Of a DNA stretch of 64,000 nucleotides, positions 7,081 through 56,409 are shown one piece after another. How positions within the stretch are numbered: the first letter of the stretch is position 1; each line of letters opens with the position of its first letter. The notes below the pieces were generated by a model that was not told the origin of the DNA, did not search any database, and saw only the letters and a program-made list of their open reading frames with translations. The position numbers and the translations under genes were made by a program. This stretch comes from Bacteroidales bacterium. GTDB taxonomy: Bacteria > Bacteroidota > Bacteroidia > Bacteroidales > WCHB1-69. The stretch spans positions 58,230 to 122,229 of the forward strand of contig JAEEQE010000005.1 in the NCBI GenBank assembly GCA_016285145.1, given 5' to 3'.

Positions 7081-7129
7081 AATATAACGTAACCTAATCT
7101 AATCTAATCCAATTTTTTTTATCTTTGTC

Positions 7130-7429: not shown

Positions 7430-10400
7430 ATGAGAAAAATTTTCACATTGATAATCATGGTGCTGGCCGTATATAACTTGTTTGCTCAAGCACCGCAGAG
7501 GATGACCTATCAGGCCGTGGTGCGCAACAGTGCCAATGTCCTGATTGCCAACCAGAACGTGTCGGCACGTATTTCCATTTTGCAGGGTTCTGCGCAGGGT
7601 GCAGCCGTATATGTGGAGCAGCATAACACGACAACCAACGCTAACGGGTTGATGACTGTGGAGATTGGCGGTGGCTCGCCTATGGCGGGCGTTTTCGCCA
7701 ATATCGACTGGAGTACCGGTCCCTATTTCCTGAAATCGGAGATTGACCCGGAGGGCGGCATCAACTACTCCATTGAGAGTGTGCAGCAGTTGTTGAGCGT
7801 GCCCTACGCTCTGTATGCAAAAGAGGCGGGCAACGGTTTCAGCGGCGACTACAACGACTTGACGAATGTGCCCACCTTTACGGAATCTCAGATTCTGAGC
7901 ATCAGCCACGATACTATCTACCTCACAGGCGGCAGCTTCGTGAAACTGCCCGCCGGTTTTGATGGCGATTATAACAGTTTGACGAATAAACCAAACTTGT
8001 TCAGCGGAGCCTACAACGATCTAACGGGCAAACCCAACCTCGCGCCCGTGGCCACGAGTGGCGCCTACGGCGACCTCACCGGGCAGCCGACCATCCCTGC
8101 CGAGCAGGTGAATGCCGACTGGATTGCTACTTCCGGCAAGGCGCAGATACTCAACAAACCGATGCTCTTCAGCGGCAACTACAACGATCTGACTAATAAG
8201 CCGACATTGTTTGATGGTAATTATAATTCGTTGAGCAACAAGCCTATACTGTTTAGTGGCAATTATAACGATTTGACGAACAAGCCGACCCTGTTTGACG
8301 GGAACTACAACTCGTTGAGCAACCGCCCGAACCTGTCGGCGGTGGCTTTGAGCGGCAGTTATAACGATTTGATTAACAAACCGGCCTTGTTCGACGGAAA
8401 TTACAATTCGTTGAGCAACCGCCCGAATCTCGCGCCAGTGGCCACGTCGGGCAGCTATGCCGACCTGACCAACAAACCGAACTTGGCCACGGTGGCCACC
8501 AGCGGCAGTTACAACGACCTCTCCAACCGCCCCGCCATCCCTTCCGAGCAAGTGAATGCCGACTGGACAGCCATTTCCGGCAAGGCGCAGATTCTCAACC
8601 GGCCCAACCTCGCGCCCGTGGCCACATCAGGCAACTACAACGACCTTACCAACAAGCCCACTATCCCGGCCGAGCAGGTGAACTCAGACTGGAATGCCAC
8701 CTCCGGCAAGGCGCAGATCCTTAATAGACCCAACCTCGCGCCTGTAGCCACTACCGGCAATTATAGCGACCTTAACGGTAGACCCAACCTCGCACCAGTA
8801 GCCACCTCGGGCAACTACAACGACCTTAACAATCTTCCCACCATCCCTAATGTCCCTACAGACGTTAGTGTCTTTACCAACGACGCCGGCTACCTTACTC
8901 GCGATTCCCTCCCCACCAACGTGAGTGGCTTTACCAACGACGCTGGCTACCTTACCACCTTCACGGAAAGCCAAATCCTGAGCATCAGCAATGACACCAT
9001 CTACCTTACGGGCGGCAGCTTCGTGAAACTGCCCGCCGGCTTTGACGGCGACTACAACAGCCTTACCAACAAGCCGAACCTTTTCAGTGGTGCTTACGGT
9101 GACCTTACAGGAAAACCCAATCTTGCGCCCGTAGCCACCTCAGGCAACTATAATGATCTCACCAACAAGCCCACTATCCCTACGGTCCCTACTGACGTTA
9201 GTGTCTTTAACAATGACGCCGGCTACCTTACCCGCGACTCCCTCCCCACCAACGTGAGTGGCTTTACCAACGACGCTGGCTACCTTACCTCCTTCACGGA
9301 AAGCCAAATCCTGAGCATCAGCAACGACACCATCTACCTCACAGGCGGCAGCTTCGTGAAACTGCCCGCCGGCTTCGATGGCGACTACAATAGCCTGACA
9401 AACAAGCCTAACTTCGCGCCTGTTGCCACCTCGGGCAACTACAGCGAACTTAACGGCAAGCCCAATCTCGCGCCAGTAGCCACTACCGGCAATTATAGCG
9501 ACCTTAACGACCTTCCCACCATCCCTACGGTCCCTACTGACGTTAGTGTCTTTAATAACGACGCCGGCTACCTTACCCGCGACAGCCTCCCCACCAACGT
9601 TAGCGTCTTTACCAACGATGCTGGCTACCTGACCTCCTTCACGGAAAGCCAAATTCTGAGCATCAGCAACGACACCATCTACCTCACAGGCGGCAGCTTC
9701 GTGAAACTGCCCGCTGGCTTCGATGGCGACTACAACAGCCTGACAAACAAGCCTAACCTCGCGCCAGTAGCCACTACCGGCAATTATAACGACCTTAATG
9801 ACCTTCCCACCATCCCTAATGTCCCCACCAACGTTAGTGCCTTTAACAATGACGCCGGCTACCTGACCTCCTTCACGGAAAGCCAAATTCTGAGCATCAG
9901 CAACGACACCATCTACCTCACGGGCGGCAGCTTCGTGAAACTGCCCGCTGGCTTCGATGGCGACTACAACAGCCTGACAAACAGGCCCAACCTCGCACCA
10001 GTAGCCACCTCGGGCAACTACAGCGACCTTAACGGTAAGCCCAATCTCGCGCCAGTAGCCACTACCGGCAATTATAGCGACCTTAACGACCTTCCCACCA
10101 TCCCTAATGTCCCTACTGACGTTAGTGCCTTTAACAATGATGCCGGCTACCTTACTCGCGACTCCCTCCCCACCAGCGTCAGTGCCTTCACCAACGACGC
10201 GGGCTACCTGACCTCTTTCACGGAGAGCCAAATCCTGAGCATCAGCAACGACACCATCTACCTTACGGGCGGCAGCTTCGTGAAACTGCCCACTGCAGAG
10301 GGATTTAGCGGCAGTTACAATGATCTCACCGACAAACCCACCATCCCTAATGTTCCCACTAACGTTAGTGCCTTTACTAACGACGCCGGCTACCTAACCT

Positions 10401-23089: not shown

Positions 23090-25401
23090 CACTTTTTCAC
23101 CACCTTCTGCGTTAGATGCTGCGCGCCGTCCTGGGCGTTCAGGAAATAGACGCCGCTGGAAAGGTGTTGCACATTGAAGGTGTTGCTGCCCGGCTTCAGG
23201 CGCACGACCATGACGGTGCGGCCCGTGGAGTCGGTAAGGGTGGCCCGTATGGGCTTCTCGGTACCCTGCACCAGAATGTTCAGCTGGTCGGCAACCGGGT
23301 TGGGGTAGAGGTGCCAGCCAGTGTGGTTCTCAATGTCAGCGACGCTCGCGTTGGCATCTCCCACCGCCAGACAGTACTGACCGGGTTGTAGGACGGTGGT
23401 CTTGACGTAGCCTGCCAGCATACTGCCTGTGCGTGTGTGTTGGATTACACGCCACGGCATGGAGGCATTTTCCCGGTAAAGCAGCTTTAACTGCGAGATG
23501 TCATAATCGGCATCAAACCACCCGTAATCCAACTGTCCCTCAAAACCTCTACGGTAACGAAACTGGATGTAGCCCAACGGAATGGTGTTGATGGCTGTGT
23601 TGTAGGCCATCCCGATTGTCCAATAGTGCGTGTTGGCCATCTTGTAGATGCCGGCGGGAAGCTCGTCGGGAACATCCGGAGCTACCAAGTTGTGCTCGAT
23701 GCGCACTAAGATGGTGTCGGGGAAGGACTCCAACCGGAAGGTGCAGTCGGCATCCGTGGGCGACCAATTGGTGCCGTTGGTGAGCGATCGCGTGTAGTCA
23801 ATTATGGCATCCGTGATTTTCTCCGCGTAGTCCACCATGCCGAAAGCGGGAGTGAACGGGATAGTCACGTCCACATGGCCGAATTCGCCGGAAAATGCCA
23901 CGTTCGGGATGGTGTACAGTTGGCGTTGCTCAGACACAAAGGTGAGGTCCACACGGTTGTCGTTGATGGGTTGGGTGGCGTGATAAAGCTTCTGGTGCAG
24001 ATAGATACGGTATTGGTTGCCCGATAGGGGTATAATGGAATCAATGGAGAAATGCGGGAATCCGGGTTGGTGTACCCATCCCTCGTAAAAAGCGGTCAGG
24101 TTGACACCCGTTTCCTGTGACAGGTAGTTGAAAAGTTCCGGCGAGGAGACATTTTGGAAGGCGTAATGGTTGAGCAAGCTGCGCATCCCGCTGAAAAACA
24201 GCGAGTCGCCCAGATAGTTGCGCAGGGTGTGCACAATCAGCGAGCCTTTGTCATAGGAGTGCATGCCGTAGGTGTGATTTTGTGGTACATTGTCCAAAGC
24301 ATAGTAGCCCTCGTCGTTGTGGGCAAGCTGTTGCAGCACCTCATGATGTTTGTCGCGGATATAACCGCTGTAGTTGTCACTGATCAGACCCGCGACCAAC
24401 GCTTCCGAGTAGGTGGCAAACCCTTCGTTGATCCACATCTCCTCGGCCCGTTGGCAGGTGATGAGGTCGCCAAACCAATGGTGGAACAGCTCATGCGCAT
24501 AGAGTTGCTCGTATTCGGTGCCCCCGGTGATGGCGGCGTTGGGGTAGGCGATGTTGGTGGCGTGCTCCATGGCTCCACTGTTGAAGTTCACGGCTACGTA
24601 ACCCACACGCTGCCAGCGGTATGGCCCGAACAATTGCTCGTACATGCGCAGGATGTCCTTCAGATGCACAAAAGAACCCGCCACCTTGTTGATGGTGTTG
24701 GGCTGGGCGTAAATCTGGATGGGAATAATGCGCTCTTGGCCATGGAATGTGTCGGCGTAGAGGCGGTAGTCGCCCACGGCCACGGAGGCCAAATAGGTAG
24801 GGATGGGGTCTGTCATGTTCCAGGTCCACAGACGGCTGCTGTCGGCCAGCGTCAGCGAGTCGGTGAGCATGCCCCCGCAGACGGCCCTCTTGCCCGCCTC
24901 GGTGCGGACGTGCAACGTGTAGGTGGACTTGTCGGTGAACACGTCCAGGCAGGGGAACCACACGCGTCCGATGACGTGCGGCTGGTAGTCAAGGTCCACC
25001 CCGATGTTATAGCAGTATTGCCCCGAGTAGTGGATGCCGCCCCAGGCCATGCCCGGCAGAAAGGGTGTGCCGTGGTAGCAGACGCGCACTGCGACGGTGT
25101 CGCCCTGCTGCAGGGTGGGGGTGCTGATGTGCATCTTCTCGCCCTGTTGGGTGAAAGTGGCCTGCTGCCCGCCGACAAAAGCGGAGTCCACGGTCAATCC
25201 CGCCAGATCCAAGGTGATCTGGTTGAGGTTGTTTTGTTTGGCGATGACGGTGAGCTGTGCATCCCCATAGATGATTTTCGTGCTGAAGTCGCGGATGTCG
25301 AGCTGGAGGTCGTAGTGGGCCACGTGCAAGGTGTCGCCAAGGTCTTGGGCGTGCAGGCTTGCGGCGAAAAGGGTGATGAGGATGAGCAGGGTTCTTTTCA
25401 T
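23089..25401 (-). CDS. Secreted M1 family aminopeptidase with T9SS type A sorting domain
   Basis: The 770-residue product has a signal peptide (MKRTLLILITLFAASLHAQ), an M1 beta-rich N-terminal domain, and the zinc site HELFHHWFGD (about residue 302) followed by the glutamate ligand in MWINEGFATYSEA. The substrate-binding motif reads GAMEH instead of the canonical GAMEN. The C-terminal domain starts near GWHLYPNPVADQLNILVQG and ends TQKVVKK, a type A sorting domain for the type IX secretion system. The enzyme probably releases N-terminal amino acids from peptides outside the cell. It is divergent from wecB, with a separate promoter at 25441-25448. Confidence 0.9.
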   Translation of the reverse strand: MKRTLLILITLFAASLHAQDLGDTLHVAHYDLQLDIRDFSTKIIYGDAQLTVIAKQNNLNQITLDLAGLTVDSAFVGGQQATFTQQGEKMHISTPTLQQGDTVAVRVCYHGTPFLPGMAWGGIHYSGQYCYNIGVDLDYQPHVIGRVWFPCLDVFTDKSTYTLHVRTEAGKRAVCGGMLTDSLTLADSSRLWTWNMTDPIPTYLASVAVGDYRLYADTFHGQERIIPIQIYAQPNTINKVAGSFVHLKDILRMYEQLFGPYRWQRVGYVAVNFNSGAMEHATNIAYPNAAITGGTEYEQLYAHELFHHWFGDLITCQRAEEMWINEGFATYSEALVAGLISDNYSGYIRDKHHEVLQQLAHNDEGYYALDNVPQNHTYGMHSYDKGSLIVHTLRNYLGDSLFFSGMRSLLNHYAFQNVSSPELFNYLSQETGVNLTAFYEGWVHQPGFPHFSIDSIIPLSGNQYRIYLHQKLYHATQPINDNRVDLTFVSEQRQLYTIPNVAFSGEFGHVDVTIPFTPAFGMVDYAEKITDAIIDYTRSLTNGTNWSPTDADCTFRLESFPDTILVRIEHNLVAPDVPDELPAGIYKMANTHYWTIGMAYNTAINTIPLGYIQFRYRRGFEGQLDYGWFDADYDISQLKLLYRENASMPWRVIQHTRTGSMLAGYVKTTVLQPGQYCLAVGDANASVADIENHTGWHLYPNPVADQLNILVQGTEKPIRATLTDSTGRTVMVVRLKPGSNTFNVQHLSSGVYFLNAQDGAQHLTQKVVKK

Positions 25402-25440
25402 AATATAATGCGGTTAAATGTTTGGGGAATAATGCGGCTG

Positions 25441-25448
25441 CAAAGGTA
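25441..25448 (-). promoter_or_regulatory. -7 element of the M1 peptidase gene
   Basis: On the minus strand this reads TACCTTTG, matching TAnnTTTG, 40 bases before the peptidase ATG. It is back-to-back with the wecB promoter. Confidence 0.55.
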
Positions 25449-25466
25449 CGCAATTATTTTTTTCAT

Positions 25467-25474
25467 TACTTTTG
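25467..25474 (+). promoter_or_regulatory. -7 element of wecB
   Basis: TACTTTTG matches TAnnTTTG. Its position favours the wecB ATG at 25493 over the upstream in-frame ATGs at 25472 and 25484. Confidence 0.5.
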
Positions 25475-25492
25475 CAATTCAAAATGTCAGCA

Positions 25493-26578
25493 ATGAAGAT
25501 TCTATCGGTTATCGGTGCGCGGCCCCAGTTCGTGAAGGCGGCGGTGGTGAGTGCGGAAATACATAACACCCCCGGTGTCAGCGAGGTGTTGGTCCATACC
25601 GGCCAGCATTTCGACGCAAACATGTCGCAGCTCTTTTTCGAGGAGATGGGCATCCGGCAGCCGCAATACAATCTGGGTATCCACAGCTTGCCCCACGAGG
25701 AGATGGTGACACAGATGCAGGCAGGTATTGAACGGGTGATCCGTGACGAGTGCCCCGACTGGCTGTTGGTCTATGGCGATACGGATTCCACGCTGGCCGG
25801 CGCACAGGCTGCCCGCGCGTGTGCGGTGCCGCTGTGCCATGTGGAGGCTGGCCTGCGCTCGTTCAATCCCAAGATGCGCGAGGAATATAACCGCATCCAG
25901 ACCGACAAACTCAGCGATGTGCTGTTTGCGCCCACCACGACAGCTGTGCGCAATCTCGAACACGAAGGTATTGACCCGAAGAAGATTATCCTTACCGGCG
26001 ATGTGATGAAGGATGCGGCCCTGCTGTTCGCGCCGCAGGCACGCAAACCGCAAGTGGAACTGCCGGACGAGTTCGTCCTCTGTACGTTACATCGGGCCGA
26101 GAATACGGATAATCCCGAAATCTTGAAAGAGCTGCTGTTGGCTTTGGAGATGGTCTGCCAATTTGTGCCGGTGGTGCTGCCGTTGCATCCGCGCACCCGT
26201 CAGAAGATGCAGGAAATCAACTATCCGATAGGGCAGTCGCCCATCTTGTTTATAGATCCCGTGGGCTATTTGGAAATGCTCTATCTGTTGCTACATTGCC
26301 GCTTGGTGCTCACCGACAGCGGCGGCGTGCAGAAAGAGGCCTATTTCGCCCACAAATACTGCATGACCCTTCGCGAGGAGACCGAATGGGTGGAACTGTG
26401 CGCCCGCGGCTATAATCATCTGCTCGGGCACAACCATATAGATATTGTATCGACTGTACAGAATTTTCTGTCGATGCCGCCTTTGTTCACCGATGATCTC
26501 TATGGCGACGGCCACGCGGCACGTACCATTGTTTATTGTTTGCAGAATGATAAGGAAGCGGGGGTAATTAACAATTAA
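25493..26578 (+). CDS. wecB: UDP-N-acetylglucosamine 2-epimerase (non-hydrolysing)
   Basis: The 361-residue protein interconverts UDP-GlcNAc and UDP-ManNAc for surface polysaccharide synthesis. Family features are MKILSVIGARPQFVKAA at the start, HTGQHFD, VYGDTDSTLAGA, HVEAGLRSFN, the LHRAENTDN segment and DSGGVQKEAYF near the C-terminus. The start at 25493 is chosen because MKILSVIGARPQ is the usual N-terminus and because of promoter position. The last five codons (GVINN) and the stop are formed by the beginning of a heptamer repeat array (26566-26600), so the original C-terminus was probably altered when the array arose. Confidence 0.93.
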   Translation: MKILSVIGARPQFVKAAVVSAEIHNTPGVSEVLVHTGQHFDANMSQLFFEEMGIRQPQYNLGIHSLPHEEMVTQMQAGIERVIRDECPDWLLVYGDTDSTLAGAQAARACAVPLCHVEAGLRSFNPKMREEYNRIQTDKLSDVLFAPTTTAVRNLEHEGIDPKKIILTGDVMKDAALLFAPQARKPQVELPDEFVLCTLHRAENTDNPEILKELLLALEMVCQFVPVVLPLHPRTRQKMQEINYPIGQSPILFIDPVGYLEMLYLLLHCRLVLTDSGGVQKEAYFAHKYCMTLREETEWVELCARGYNHLLGHNHIDIVSTVQNFLSMPPLFTDDLYGDGHAARTIVYCLQNDKEAGVINN

Positions 26579-26600
26579 TAATTAACAATTAACAATTATT
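26566..26600. repeat. Left 7-bp array flanking the S23 gene
   Basis: Five in-phase heptamers: AATTAAC, AATTAAT, AATTAAC, AATTAAC, AATTATT. The array starts inside wecB and covers its stop codon. It is the inverted counterpart of the array at 27114-27141. Confidence 0.8.
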
Positions 26601-26756
26601 GTTGTTTGTATAATAAAACGATGGGGTGGATCGTTGTTGTGGATTGTACGCGTATGTGATGAATAAAGAAAAGCATCCTTAATGCGTATCAACGAACAAT
26701 TGGGTTGCAGTGTCAATTGTTTGATTCTAATCCACTAATTGTAAAATGTTAATTGA

Positions 26757-27125
26757 ATGAAGACAAGTAACGTGTTGTTGGAGAAAACGAAGCATTTTGC
26801 GTTGCGAATCATAAGGATGTATTCATTTCTTGTAAAGGAAAAAAACGAATATGTTATGTCAAGGCAGATATTACGTAGTGGAACAAGTATAGGCGCTAAT
26901 GCCAGAGAAGCGTCAACCGCCCAAAGCAAACGGGATTTTTATTCCAAATTACATATATCGTTCAAAGAAGCGGCTGAAACCGAATATTGGCTGGAGTTGT
27001 TACATGAAAGCGGATATATTGATGAAGAACCTTTCAATAGCATACATGAGGAATGTCGTGAGCTACTGAAAATCTTAACATCCATCCTCAAGACCAAGCC
27101 CCCCTTGACAACTATTAATTATTAA
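26757..27125 (+). CDS. Four-helix-bundle (S23/IVS-type) protein
   Basis: The 122-residue product belongs to the family of four-helix-bundle proteins encoded by 23S rRNA intervening sequences (S23). Diagnostic features are RQILRSGTSIGANAREASTA, the loop motif of the family, and FYSKLHISFKEAAETEYWLELLHE. Relatives include Avd, an accessory protein of diversity-generating retroelements; no reverse transcriptase is present here. Biochemical role is unknown; the family is thought to bind nucleic acid. It starts at an ATG after 156 non-coding bases and ends inside an inverted heptamer array. The unit sits between the convergent genes wecB and the MutS-like gene, as if inserted there. Confidence 0.88.
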   Translation: MKTSNVLLEKTKHFALRIIRMYSFLVKEKNEYVMSRQILRSGTSIGANAREASTAQSKRDFYSKLHISFKEAAETEYWLELLHESGYIDEEPFNSIHEECRELLKILTSILKTKPPLTTINY

Positions 27126-27141
27126 TTGTTAATTGTTAATT
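27114..27141. repeat. Right 7-bp array flanking the S23 gene
   Basis: Four in-phase heptamers: ATTAATT, ATTAATT, GTTAATT, GTTAATT, the reverse complement type of the left array. It covers the S23 stop codon (27123-27125) and the stop of the convergent MutS-like gene (27129-27131). Confidence 0.8.
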
Positions 27142-28481
27142 AGCCCCCCGTCCACCCCCAGCAGTCGTGCGATGGAGAATGCCTCCATGGGCACCTCGTC
27201 GGCGTCGGTTTCCACCAGGGAGTAGTCGATATAGTCGCCGATGTTGTGCACGGTGACGGGTGTGTCGCCCCGCAGCTGGAGGCCCTTCACGCGCAGCCGC
27301 CGGCAGTTGGCGCTGATGCCGCTGTAGTGTGTGGTGACCAGAGAGGTGATGCCGAGTTGTGCGGCCAGTTTCAGGTAGTTGCTGACGATGCGTTTGCCCT
27401 CCTCGGGGTTGGTGGTGCGGGCCAACTCGTCCACTAAGGCTAATATTCTCTTTCCAGCTCGTCCGGCCTGGATGATGTCGTGGATGGTGAGAATCTCCAC
27501 GGCAAAAGAGGATAGTCCGCTGATTTCGGACTGCCGGTCGCCGATGCTGCTGTAGATTTCGTCCATGACGGTCATGGCGGCGTGTTTTGCGGGCAGGTAG
27601 AATCCGAATTGGCAGAGGTGTTGGGCCAGGGATACGGTTTTCAACAGCACGGACTTGCCCGCCATGTTTGCTCCGGTGATGAGTACGGTCTCGCATCCGA
27701 AGCGGATGTCGATGGGCTGGAAATGACGGCCTTTTTCCTCTAAAACGGCCGCCACTTCGGGATTGTACAGCTGATGCAGGTCTGTATGGTCGGAGAGGGT
27801 GGGGCGACAGGCGTTCCATTCGATGGCCAGTTGGGCTTTGGCGAGCAGCAGGTCTAAATGGGCAAGCTGTTCCAGATTGTGGGCCATCGCCTCGCGGTAG
27901 GGTTGCAGCTGTTGCGACAGAGAGGCCCGCACGCGGTCTTCCACCTTCTGGGCTTGGAAACAGAACTCCTCCGCCTCGGCCGCACTTTGTGCATTCTGGA
28001 TGCGCTCACGCCATTGGGCGAGCTCGTGATCATAGAGCGAATAGACGTAGAAATGAGGGATGCCGGTGTGCTCGGGATCCAATAGTGTGATGACAGCGTC
28101 CATATTTTCCAGCGGGCAGATGTCGCTGCCGCAGGCTTCTAACGCCTCCGCAATCTTGCGAGTGAGGATAGCGGTCTTCTTGATCTCGAACAGCTGGATA
28201 TCGTCCATCACGCTGCCGTCGGCCAAGGCGGACAGTGTGGGCCGTATGTCGTTGATCTGGTGCAGATGGTTGCGTATGCTCATCAACTTGCTCCGGAACT
28301 GGTCGTTGCGGCGCAGGTCAATGGCTTTGGACAAAAGGTCGAACTCCGCCTCCAATTCCTGCGCGGAGGTGCTGAACGGCAGGTCCAACAGATACTTCCG
28401 GCCCAAATTGGAGGTGAGCTGGAGCTGCTCATACACATAGTGCAGGGCGGAGTTTTGTTCGAAAGCATTTTTGAAAAGCAT
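27129..28481 (-). CDS. MutS-family ATPase (MutS-like, lacking mismatch-binding domain)
   Basis: The 450-residue product has the MutS core (lever/clamp helices, about 1-240) and ATPase domain: Walker A TGANMAGKSVLLKT, the signature region SSFAVEILTIHDII, Walker B ILALVDELARTTNPEEG and the VTTHYSG switch. There is no N-terminal mismatch-recognition domain, so it is not MutS1. Short MutS-like ATPases of this type are also found in lysine- and ornithine-fermentation gene clusters of anaerobes, but no such genes are adjacent. The last residues (GGLINN) are encoded by the heptamer array, which supplies the stop codon. Promoter at 28511-28518. Confidence 0.82.
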   Translation of the reverse strand: MLFKNAFEQNSALHYVYEQLQLTSNLGRKYLLDLPFSTSAQELEAEFDLLSKAIDLRRNDQFRSKLMSIRNHLHQINDIRPTLSALADGSVMDDIQLFEIKKTAILTRKIAEALEACGSDICPLENMDAVITLLDPEHTGIPHFYVYSLYDHELAQWRERIQNAQSAAEAEEFCFQAQKVEDRVRASLSQQLQPYREAMAHNLEQLAHLDLLLAKAQLAIEWNACRPTLSDHTDLHQLYNPEVAAVLEEKGRHFQPIDIRFGCETVLITGANMAGKSVLLKTVSLAQHLCQFGFYLPAKHAAMTVMDEIYSSIGDRQSEISGLSSFAVEILTIHDIIQAGRAGKRILALVDELARTTNPEEGKRIVSNYLKLAAQLGITSLVTTHYSGISANCRRLRVKGLQLRGDTPVTVHNIGDYIDYSLVETDADEVPMEAFSIARLLGVDGGLINN

Positions 28482-28510
28482 AGTCGTCAGTTTCGTTTTT
28501 TTAAGGTTGG

Positions 28511-28518
28511 CAAAGATA
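28511..28518 (-). promoter_or_regulatory. -7 element of the MutS-like gene
   Basis: The minus strand reads TATCTTTG, a perfect TAnnTTTG match, 30 bases before the ATG at 28481. Confidence 0.6.
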
Positions 28519-28564
28519 CGATTTTATTTCGGAGAAGATGCAGTCCCTCGCCGATATCCTCGTG

Positions 28565-28607
28565 CTGACTTTTTGTCAGTCGTTCATGTTTGGCAATATT
28601 GTTGCTT
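28565..28607 (+). promoter_or_regulatory. Sigma-54-like promoter with upstream palindrome, before clpB
   Basis: TTGGCAATATTGTTGCTT (28590-28607) has the -24 GG and -12 GC of a sigma-54 promoter at the canonical 10-base separation. Eleven bases upstream is the perfect inverted repeat CTGAC-TTTTT-GTCAG (28565-28579). No TAnnTTTG box is visible in this interval on the plus strand. The pair suggests regulated, stress-induced transcription of clpB. Confidence 0.5.
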
Positions 28608-35167: not shown

Positions 35168-35446
35168 AAATACGATTGTTTTAAAACGGGAGAACCATCC
35201 ATTAACCGTTGAATATGAATCTCCTATGGAGATTTGAAAATCACGTGTGGTGTACGTTTGCTACAGATAGGCATCCCCGTAGGGGATGTTACCCCACGCC
35301 TCGTCACACCTCACCTCACCTCACTTCACTTTACCTCACCACCGCCTACTCCGGCACGATCAGCCCGATGCGGGTGTATGCGGTGTGGCGGTTGATGCCG
35401 GAATCTTGTGTTGTTCCCCGAATTCCGCTGAACCCCGTTAGGGGTT
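35168..35446. repeat. Palindrome-rich interspersed repeat, copy B
   Basis: Second copy of the unit at 34290-34566, same orientation. It keeps ATCTCCTATGGAGAT, CATCCCCGTAGGGGATG and AACCCCGTTAGGGGTT; paired changes preserve complementarity in the first two. Together with copy A it brackets hicBA. The rest of the gap to 35594 holds only the terminator at 35531. Confidence 0.75.
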
Positions 35447-40347: not shown

Positions 40348-40387
40348 ATTTACAATTAATAATGAACAATTAATAATTAAAAATTAG
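40348..40387. repeat. 7-bp array forming the ettA leader
   Basis: In-phase heptamers read ATTTACA, ATTAATA, ATGAACA, ATTAATA, ATTAAAA, then ATTAG. The type is the same as at 26566-26600, but no inverted partner is visible between here and the patB stop at 40454. It directly precedes the ettA start codon. Confidence 0.65.
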
Positions 40388-55902: not shown

Positions 55903-55906
55903 GATC

Positions 55907-55934
55907 GGCTGTTAGCCGTTAGCTATTAGGTTTT
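55907..55934. repeat. Left 7-bp array flanking the second S23 gene
   Basis: In-phase heptamers: GGCTGTT, AGCCGTT, AGCTATT, AGGTTTT. It begins four bases after the purH stop and covers the stop codon of the S23 pseudogene (55926-55928, minus strand). It is the inverted counterpart of 56361-56409. Confidence 0.75.
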
Positions 55935-56278
55935 TAATGTGGAAATTAACTTGTTAAGCCTTTTTTCTATAATCAATAATCTAGCACAGATTTGTTTTAA
56001 TTGGGTATCATCCAAATATTTCAAATTATAAGCTATGATTGTTTGTGTTTCTAATTCAAATGCAGATCCAATGCTTATTTCTAAGAAATGGATAAATTCC
56101 CTGCTGGATGTTCTCGATCCCCTTCTGCTATGTTGGCTGCAATTGATACTGCGGATCTCCTCATTTGATCTGACAAAGCATAGCGTTCGTATGTTGGAAA
56201 ACCTTTTAAATAATTATAGATGTCTGTTACTAATGATATTGCGTCATTCCATACTCCATATTTCCTAAAATCCATCAT
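55926..56278 (-). pseudogene. Frameshifted four-helix-bundle (S23/IVS-type) protein gene
   Basis: The first frame gives MMDFRKYGVWNDAISLVTDI ... MRRSAVSIAANIAEG, the diagnostic loop of S23 proteins, then drifts out of frame and stops. The continuation SRTSSREFIHFLEISIGSAF ... LNKLISTLKT is in another frame. Restoring one base in the G4 run (plus-strand CCCC, 56119-56122) gives a 117-residue protein of normal family length. Total length 353 is one base short of 118 codons. Either a recent one-base deletion, a phase-variable tract or a sequencing error. It lies on the minus strand inside inverted heptamer arrays. Confidence 0.8.
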
Positions 56279-56360
56279 TCTATCTTTTGTTTATTATATT
56301 CTAAATAACGATTGTTAATTAATGATATTGTTTGATTTATATATTTTTTAATAAACAACT

Positions 56361-56409
56361 ATTAACCAATGACTAAAGACCAACGGCTAACGGCCAATGG
56401 CTAATGGCA
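56361..56409. repeat. Right 7-bp array flanking the second S23 gene
   Basis: Seven in-phase heptamers: ATTAACC, AATGACT, AAAGACC, AACGGCT, AACGGCC, AATGGCT, AATGGCA. Opposite sense to the array at 55907-55934. It explains a spurious upstream ATG (56397) in frame with ung. Confidence 0.8.

Follow-up and report, generated by a model that had tools for sequence, protein, structure and literature searches.

We analyzed a stretch of 64,000 nucleotides of a Bacteroidales bacterium (GenBank assembly GCA_016285145.1, contig JAEEQE010000005.1, positions 58,230 to 122,229; hereafter, the window), in which a gene of the S23 family, that of 23S rRNA intervening sequence (IVS) proteins, is enclosed by two inverted arrays of a 7-bp repeat. 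There is strong support for regarding the S23 gene and its inverted arrays as one unit. We propose that this unit, a single S23 gene enclosed by two inverted short-tandem-repeat arrays, is probably a small mobile element, whose S23 protein would read the repeats at its own ends. S23 genes are framed by arrays and the two arrays of a pair are inverted; the core of the repeat is linked to the S23 clade, and clades differ in core; and the sites that carry S23 units show turnover. The unit of the window and its neighbors are as follows.

25472..26578, plus strand: wecB, UDP-GlcNAc 2-epimerase (open reading frame, ORF; TIGR00236, 272.7 bits, cut-off 210)
26566..26598, plus strand: left heptamer array AATTAAC/AATTAAT, 4.7 copies, with the core ARTK and three free bases as read along the S23 gene
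26599..26756, plus strand: leader from the left array to the S23 start codon, belonging to the unit (84% identity between genomes G000 and G012, 596 aligned bases from about 26623)
26757..27125, plus strand: gene of the S23, or 23S rRNA-intervening-sequence, protein, 122 amino acids (aa), a four-helix bundle (ORF, profiles and structure model)
27110..27142, minus strand: right heptamer array, the reverse complement of the left array, in which both S23 and the convergent gene have their stop codons
27129..28481, minus strand: KamC-like gene (MutS-family ATPase), convergent to S23 (ORF; NF052383, 419.4 bits, cut-off 300)

Tandem Repeats Finder assigns a 7-bp period to both arrays (AATTAAC, 4.7 copies, at 26566-26598; 4.3 copies at 27113-27142). 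The arms 26554-26597 and 27110-27153 are inverted and 84% complementary across 44 nucleotides, a 20-nucleotide stretch being 100% complementary. Three stop codons lie inside the arrays (at the end of the wecB ORF, 26578, of the S23 ORF, 27125, and of the convergent KamC-like ORF, 27129), and the WecB and KamC-like proteins both have the C-terminal residues INN, which are encoded by the array. The framing, the coverage of the stop codons and the shared INN ends, all described in an earlier sequence-only reading, are real; the gene that it called MutS-like is indeed a convergent ORF, but is better named KamC-like. Period-7 arrays with a score of at least 14 occurred neither in 1,500 kb simulated from the AT-rich middle of the unit nor in 1,920 kb simulated from the whole window, whereas the real arrays score 21 (left) and 20 (right). 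An origin by chance or composition is thus ruled out by their absence from 3,420 kb of simulated sequence.

The S23 protein matches PF05635 with 96.5 bits (cut-off 33.8, E 1.4e-27) and TIGR02436 with 108.1 bits (cut-off 24). The family search of the unit found no transposase gene: S23 is its sole family-matched gene, the protein matched only PF05635 and no Y1 or HUH transposase, and its model is all-helical. No Rfam family was matched at the gathering threshold within 25400-28600, and the unit, lying between wecB and the KamC-like gene, is outside any 23S rRNA gene. Still, complementary arms allow an explanation at the RNA level, in which the element resembles a 23S rRNA IVS: the arrays would pair in the transcript, the S23 part would be looped out and cut by RNase III, the insert would be tolerated between genes, and the arrays would serve pairing and not the protein. 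Pairing of the arms in RNA, suggested previously, is plausible, since the transcript of the unit folds better than 20 of 20 shuffles (z-score -3.43). A Coxiella IVS with an S23 ORF and a 28-bp terminal stem is described in a passage of PMC4990558, according to which IVSs are excised by RNase III.

S23 matches were found in all 40 searched genomes of the genus of the window, with 2 to 18 rows each. For the analysis of framing we used 60 stretches, each of at most 20 kb, which surround S23 genes of nine genomes and hold a subset of the S23 genes of each genome. Of the 62 testable genes, 45 have period-7 arrays on both sides, five on one side, and 12 on neither. The density of period-7 arrays is 1.53 per kb within 300 bp of S23 genes against 0.17 elsewhere; the values for period 8 are 0.19 and 0.036, and other tested periods reach 0 to 0.05 near S23. 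The association proposed from the window is thus above chance in related genomes, and the arrays are not random with respect to S23. For 44 of the 45 period-7 pairs, the similarity of the two arms is higher in inverted than in direct comparison (mean 0.79 versus 0.51, with 0.52 between different loci).

Because the flanks of the 12 period-7 negatives and of one contig-edge gene suggested by eye spacings of 6, 8, about 10-12, and 14 or more, the detector was widened to periods 6-14 with a score of 9, which is permissive, and the identical rule was applied to all controls. With it, 59 of 62 S23 genes are framed on both sides and all 62 on at least one, against 3/212 outer control window pairs framed on both sides; at a score of 12 the corresponding counts are 53/62 and 3/212. 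The outer windows are mostly coding, and non-S23 ORFs of similar size (95-170 aa) are a fairer control. Arrays on both sides were found for 17/135 of these, by which the possibility that other genes are framed as often as S23 is ruled out, and for 66/551 of all non-S23 ORFs of at least 90 aa. A test that is free of any period, requiring at least three inverted 8-mers common to both flanks, was passed by 50/63 S23 genes and 10/58 outer controls. The genus stretches contain 49 inverted array pairs, with both arms near S23 in 29 cases and otherwise placed in 20; in ten inspected stretches (eight with non-S23 array pairs), the arrays enclose ordinary-looking genes, by the names that we presume for them, or nothing. 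Judging from the genus and control counts, the position of arrays depends on the gene family, unlike that of simple sequence repeats arising by slippage.

The same arrangement extends far beyond the genus. A scan of named genomes with six S23 sequences yielded at least 80 loci, and the following figures refer to those among the matches listed. They come from Clostridia, Bacteroidales, Fibrobacter, Treponema, Lentisphaeria, Ignavibacteria, KSB1, Verrucomicrobia, Pirellulaceae, Alcanivorax and others. Period-7 arrays occupy 135/152 flanks compared with 53/841 control windows, and every other period is found in 0-1 of the 152; the median copy number is 4.7 (quartiles 4.4-5.5). When any period is allowed, 64 of the 72 loci with enough flank are framed on both sides (controls, 2/193), and the period-free test gives 69/75 against 14/70. 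In Gammaproteobacteria, searched with the solved Xanthomonas S23 (2GSC), 37/369 genomes have a match; among the best 30 loci, 25 of them scorable, an array is present on at least one side in 25/25 and on both in 20/25, the controls being 13/44 and 1/44. Finally, S23 is framed on both sides in all 14 plasmids of a set drawn from 25 matching records (Bernardetia, Monoglobus, Treponema, Dolichospermum, four Nostoc, Euhalothece, Planktothrix, Chlorohelix, Pseudanabaena, Anabaena and Gloeocapsa), compared to 0/13 controls.

Several of these plasmid genes have notable neighbors: in L269, L274, L276, L279 and L280 the framed S23 stands between genes for restriction subunit S and HsdR, adjoins xisI or xisH/xisI, or lies at cas genes, beside cas1 in L279 and between cas2 and cas1 in L280. 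The location of S23 beside cas genes on plasmids might explain why a figure legend on CRISPR-linked genes in PMC10910872 names 23S rRNA IVP.

The repeat units of the S23 clade of the window share, in the sense of the gene, the form A-R-T-K followed by three free bases: AATTAAC in the window and AATTGAT, AATTAGG, AATGCGT, AGTTCAT and others elsewhere. We first saw this rule in the genus data and then tested it on the named loci, which had been fetched separately. Among those listed, ARTK fits the consensus heptamers of 62/72 upstream and 61/71 downstream arrays, while shuffled heptamers fit in 26 to 27 cases on average and 40 at most. Since AATT is palindromic, ARTK also fits the opposite strand (40/72 and 41/71), and we are therefore less sure of the core's orientation than of its presence. 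For the S23 tree of the genus, on which the rule is post hoc, the ARTK label requires 4 changes compared with 20.1 for shuffled labels, none of 500 shuffles being as low. Protein identity correlates with heptamer similarity (Mantel r 0.426 for 48 genes; null maximum 0.119 in 2000 permutations), also after removal of the 47 same-site pairs among 1,128 (r 0.192, null maximum 0.125).

These results bear on the IVS-like explanation. Pairing in a transcript needs neither a 7-bp period nor a clade-specific core, and yet period 7 dominates (135/152 against 53/841) and the core follows the protein; moreover, lone arrays without a partner exist. We consider an IVS-like RNA element, with arrays that serve pairing alone, unlikely. 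We find it quite likely that the S23 protein binds the core of the array, as the clade-specific cores suggest.

In place of the ARTK unit, one S23 subclade has a mini-hairpin repeat with a G-N-A loop; pairing is seen in 58 of the 60 units, which come from four loci, two of them apparently the same site. The stems are of four kinds, AC/GT, AT/AT, AGC/GCT and AGCC/GGCT, and these compensating changes suggest that the repeat is read as a single strand. Mini-hairpins as a general rule were rejected, as a scan of 198 loci gave none beyond this subclade, and the remaining hits of the scan appear to be AT-rich heptamers whose pairing follows from their composition. Binding of S23 to single-stranded RNA or DNA could thus be suggested, though we hold this tentatively.

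The model of the window S23 protein consists of four helices (predicted local distance difference test score 92.1), and Foldseek relates it to 2RLD (BT_0352 of Bacteroides thetaiotaomicron; E 2.5e-10) and 2GSC (XCC0516 of Xanthomonas; E 8e-5), as four-helix bundles of the same kind. Both entries contain five chains of one sequence, and the title of the 2GSC paper, as given in the reference list of PMC10053308, speaks of a structure of five four-helix bundles. That each subunit of an S23 pentamer takes up one core is a doubtful suggestion. Residues Q37, S44, N48, E51 and E74 are invariant across 14 diverse S23 members. Avd, the four-helix bundle of diversity-generating retroelements, follows in Foldseek (8UB7 chain E and 4DWL) with TM scores of 0.70-0.78 but E values of 0.06-0.18.

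A second unit in the window, found at 55.9-56.4 kb, has the following parts.

55906..55929, strand not assigned: left array, GCTGTTA/GCCGTTA/GCTATTA (Tandem Repeats Finder and reading)
55932..56254, minus strand: second S23 gene, broken, its two overlapping parts being in different frames (G009 and G024 have unbroken relatives at this site)
56357..56408, strand not assigned: right array, GGCTAAC type, degenerate

The recurrence of the design with a different heptamer, claimed earlier, holds, but here S23 is broken, and the arrays are more degenerate and worn. We take the neighboring genes to be purH and ung. In the genome of the window as a whole, the family search gave seven S23 rows at six places, with period-7 arrays at the first unit, at the broken unit and at locus L003 (AGAGTTT / AACTCTC). 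The flanks of L002 look by eye like a worn period-8 pair. The S23 gene of L002 recurs in the genus at L036 and L083, with worn or period-8 repeats and with neighbors that are presumably serC and serA; it is possibly an old, domesticated unit.

The purH-ung site illustrates the turnover of units. In the genus, ung gave 38 matches in 37 of 40 genomes, and the best 30 loci were compared. Among 29 of them, five are empty, seven contain only arrays, 14 carry S23 on the minus strand and three on the plus strand. Here empty means 8-15 bp between the genes, stop codon included; the empty and array-only states were sorted by eye, L166 begins at a contig end, and the neighbor is unconfirmed as purH in L171, L174, L175 and L182. 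The array-only class includes a worn remnant (L163) and gene-less array pairs (L173 and L187). At least eight changes among the four states are required by the ung tree (shuffled mean 13.7); its branches with good support demand at least five changes for S23 on the minus strand and at least four for the empty state. For instance, the ung genes of L177/L178 and L183 are nearly identical, whereas their S23 proteins are 60% identical and the repeats of L183 read as period 6. Two array-only alleles, L180 (1240-1333) and L186 (1387-1497, ung-forward), share a short insert, CTTGAACAGCCCCGTT.GGGGCAAGAGCT, which lies inside or beside the array and resembles a second small element in the repeats.

At the site of the first unit, a relative of the window S23 adjoins the KamC-like gene in 4 of 30 loci (tblastn). 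Genes wecB and kamC flank S23 in G000, G009 and G024, the orientation of S23 in G000 being opposite to that in G009 and G024. The S23 gene of G012 is oriented as in G000, but wecB is not its left neighbor and of the arrays only the right one was found, and the locus counts for the S23-kamC side only. KamC of G000 is closest to that of G009 (96%), whereas its S23 is closest to that of G012 (95%; G009, 81%). The relationships of S23 and of its flanks thus disagree, and the cassettes seem to have been exchanged or re-inserted, beyond mere flipping. Mobility of the unit, as judged by such comparisons, is supported.

Arrays abut stop and start codons (by eye, units often sit exactly at them), which would suit a host regulation module, in which S23 represses or stabilizes transcripts bearing its motif at gene ends, its own arrays are autoregulatory, and its movement is ordinary horizontal transfer. 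Translational regulation was proposed for TAACTGA arrays by MacGregor, according to a passage of PMC4679880. Yet the same gene pair is free of arrays in some relatives (5/29 empty at purH-ung), and some S23 copies are broken, both in the second unit of the window (55.9-56.4 kb) and in seven listed S23 match rows with internal stops from the 40 genus genomes. We regard such a module as very unlikely.

Arrays elsewhere in a genome tend to match the type of the resident S23. The clearest case is G798, the one genome out of 23 picked S23-bearing genomes, to which the search was confined, that has exact (GGGAATC)3; the arrays lie on four contigs apart from that of its S23 and once form an inverted pair, and its S23 (L322) is framed on both sides by GGGAATC-type units. 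Of 339 gammaproteobacterial genomes, only G439 contains exact (TAACTGA)4, in a single array located at a contig end. This genome is among the 37 with an S23 match, 31 of which fall within the 339, and its S23 (L319) has one arm of AGTTATC/AGTTGTC, which is TAACTGA on the other strand, the other arm being mixed. In the genus, lone arrays resemble the S23 arrays of their own genome more than others (0.728 versus 0.682; better in 104/153), and 5 of these 153 arrays lie inside ORFs of at least 200 aa. An ORF in L091 (7968-9169), which looks like GalE, as we presume, contains an in-frame heptamer array that produces a 7-residue peptide repeat such as LNPQPST.

Further repeats were noted in the window. 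A lone AATTAAT/AATGAAC array with the same ARTK core as the first unit (40348-40386) adjoins an apparent gene start on the minus strand, and inverted AGTGANN / NNTCACT heptamer arrays about 20 bp apart (2801-2875) form a gene-less hairpin directly after a stop codon. Besides heptamers, the sole arrays with a score of at least 14 for periods 5-12 are of period 5, TAATC at 7085-7113 and CACCT at 35295-35340. At 8152-10155, Tandem Repeats Finder reports large coding repeats, their periods ranging from 42 to 345 bp, which apparently belong to one long repetitive gene.

A number of observations weigh against a mobile unit read by its own protein. Arrays occur without S23, as 153 of the 240 strong arrays in the genus stretches lie away from it, and their match to S23 of the same genome is only a trend. 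One-sided arrays are frequent in the controls (56/212 outer pairs, 54/135 ORFs of similar size and 254/551 ORFs of at least 90 aa), and on plasmids the period-free test is passed by 13/14 S23 genes but also by 6/14 controls. In the genome of the window, the S23 loci L002, L005 and L007 have no period-7 array at a score of 14. The weakest set is the sample of 30 best-scoring S23 loci from the phylum of the window, taken to be Bacteroidota: only 13/30 are framed on both sides and 23/30 on either side (controls, 1/58 and 10/58), arrays of periods 7, 8 and 14 all occur, and the period-free test gives 17/30 compared with 4/29. Relatives with S23 but without arrays, which would speak against the association, are not seen in the genus (59/62 framed), but in the phylum sample 17/30 loci have no array on at least one side and 7/30 on both.

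The other adverse observations concern movement and its chemistry. Of 119 S23 gene pairs with at least 72% DNA identity, 13 are at sites without detectable flank homology, the best at 84.6%, and no very recent copies at new sites were found among these pairs. The relatives found that share at least 80% identity with most of the window unit all lie at its own site. By eye, no clear target-site duplication was found at the purH-ung junctions, where the arrays merge with stop and start codons. No catalytic domain was found in S23, the family search giving only PF05635. The Foldseek scores of Avd are no better than those of unrelated four-helix bundles, such as copper storage protein; the link to Avd rests on a passage of PMC10053308 that suggests its homology to PF05635. 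Reverse transcriptases (PF00078) are present in 9/40 genus genomes, whereas S23 is in 40/40; by these genome counts a required partner reverse transcriptase is not supported, and the comparison with Avd therefore supplies no enzyme. Because the G439 match covers only one arm and the Avd hit is unremarkable, we hold the mobile unit, the single-strand reading and the broadest proposal below slightly less firmly. Of the self-propagating element proposed by the sequence-only reading, the unit and, by comparison of sites, its mobility are supported; self-propagation is not, no catalytic domain, target-site duplication or very recent copies having been found. Whether S23 causes its own spread, the chemistry being left to host enzymes, appears to us evenly balanced.

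The arrays away from S23 also speak for an array-first origin, in which arrays born by slippage act as landing pads for recombination and S23 cassettes are swapped by homologous recombination, S23 itself having no role. The swap of cassettes of different families at purH-ung and their opposite orientations between wecB and kamC fit such a process. It leaves unexplained, however, why framing is specific for S23 (59/62 against 17/135) and why the core follows the S23 phylogeny, and we think it unlikely.

Preferring a unit read by its own S23 protein, we suggest the following mechanism. The arrays, usually of 7 bp in about 4-5 copies each, would mark the ends of the unit, and the S23 four-helix bundle would recognize the fixed core of the repeat, the remaining bases being free, that is, common to both arms of a unit but differing between units. 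Units would be gained and lost at intergenic sites, in many cases right at a start or stop codon; they could be replaced by another S23 unit or stand in the opposite orientation, and would leave lone arrays and gene-less array pairs. Lone arrays in trans would follow the type of the resident S23, as REP sequences follow the RAYT gene. The route that we prefer is host replication or recombination acting on arrays that are bound by S23 and perhaps single-stranded.

In REP/REPIN systems a resident RAYT gene is framed by inverted repeats of a kind that is also dispersed in the genome, and RAYTs are HUH transposases. The S23 units share the resident gene and its framing by inverted repeats, but S23 matches only PF05635, and dispersed repeats like those of the resident S23 are clear in G798 (four other contigs), limited to one array in G439, and a trend only in the genus. 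The 23S rRNA IVSs similarly have an S23-family ORF between terminal inverted repeats able to pair, and earlier suggestions that IVSs are remnants of transposition or of mobile elements are cited in PMC4990558. Units of the window type differ in that they occupy intergenic sites of protein genes and not rRNA, end in tandem arrays, and occur in many phyla.

Heptamer arrays themselves have been reported before. The TAACTGA arrays of Beggiatoaceae, Cyanobacteria and Bacteroidetes (MacGregor 2015, PMC4679880) are likewise 7-bp repeats at gene ends, and their other strand, AGTTATC, reads as ARTK and three bases; they differ in that no protein partner is identified, the words 'S23' and 'helix bundle' being absent from the main text. 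The GGGAATC / GGGANTN repeats of Xanthomonas and GGGGA(C/T)T of Nostoc (PMC4692102) have positions 1-4 and 6 conserved, mostly four units, and frequent inverted pairs, and GGGAATC units frame the S23 gene of L322; these repeats were studied as G-quadruplexes, again with neither 'S23' nor 'helix bundle' in the main text. In the open-licence PMC titles and abstract beginnings that were searched, we found no link of S23 or 'four helix bundle protein' genes to heptamer arrays. The S23-array unit looks like a widespread and previously unrecognized mobile unit. Taken at its broadest, the proposal is that S23 units are a distinct, phylum-spanning kind of selfish DNA, in which a pentameric four-helix-bundle protein reads a short core at near-fixed spacing on single strands, and that one such system, having diversified into many types of core, gave rise to the orphan heptamer arrays of Cyanobacteria, Beggiatoaceae, Xanthomonas and Bacteroidetes, to the lone arrays and array hairpins found at gene ends, and also to S23-bearing 23S rRNA IVSs; we put this forward with somewhat less than even confidence.

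The structures 2GSC and 2RLD are titled as conserved hypothetical or of unknown function, and the tie of S23 to arrays gives the family a testable function. Judging by the main texts of PMC4679880 and PMC4692102, the heptamer arrays described for several bacterial groups have been assigned no protein partner, and S23-array units may account for some of the previously reported 7-bp repeats. If S23 binds its own core, these units would be a widespread class of bacterial mobile units without a known transposase and a candidate origin for rRNA intervening sequences, and they would provide dozens of natural protein-motif pairs for learning the recognition code.

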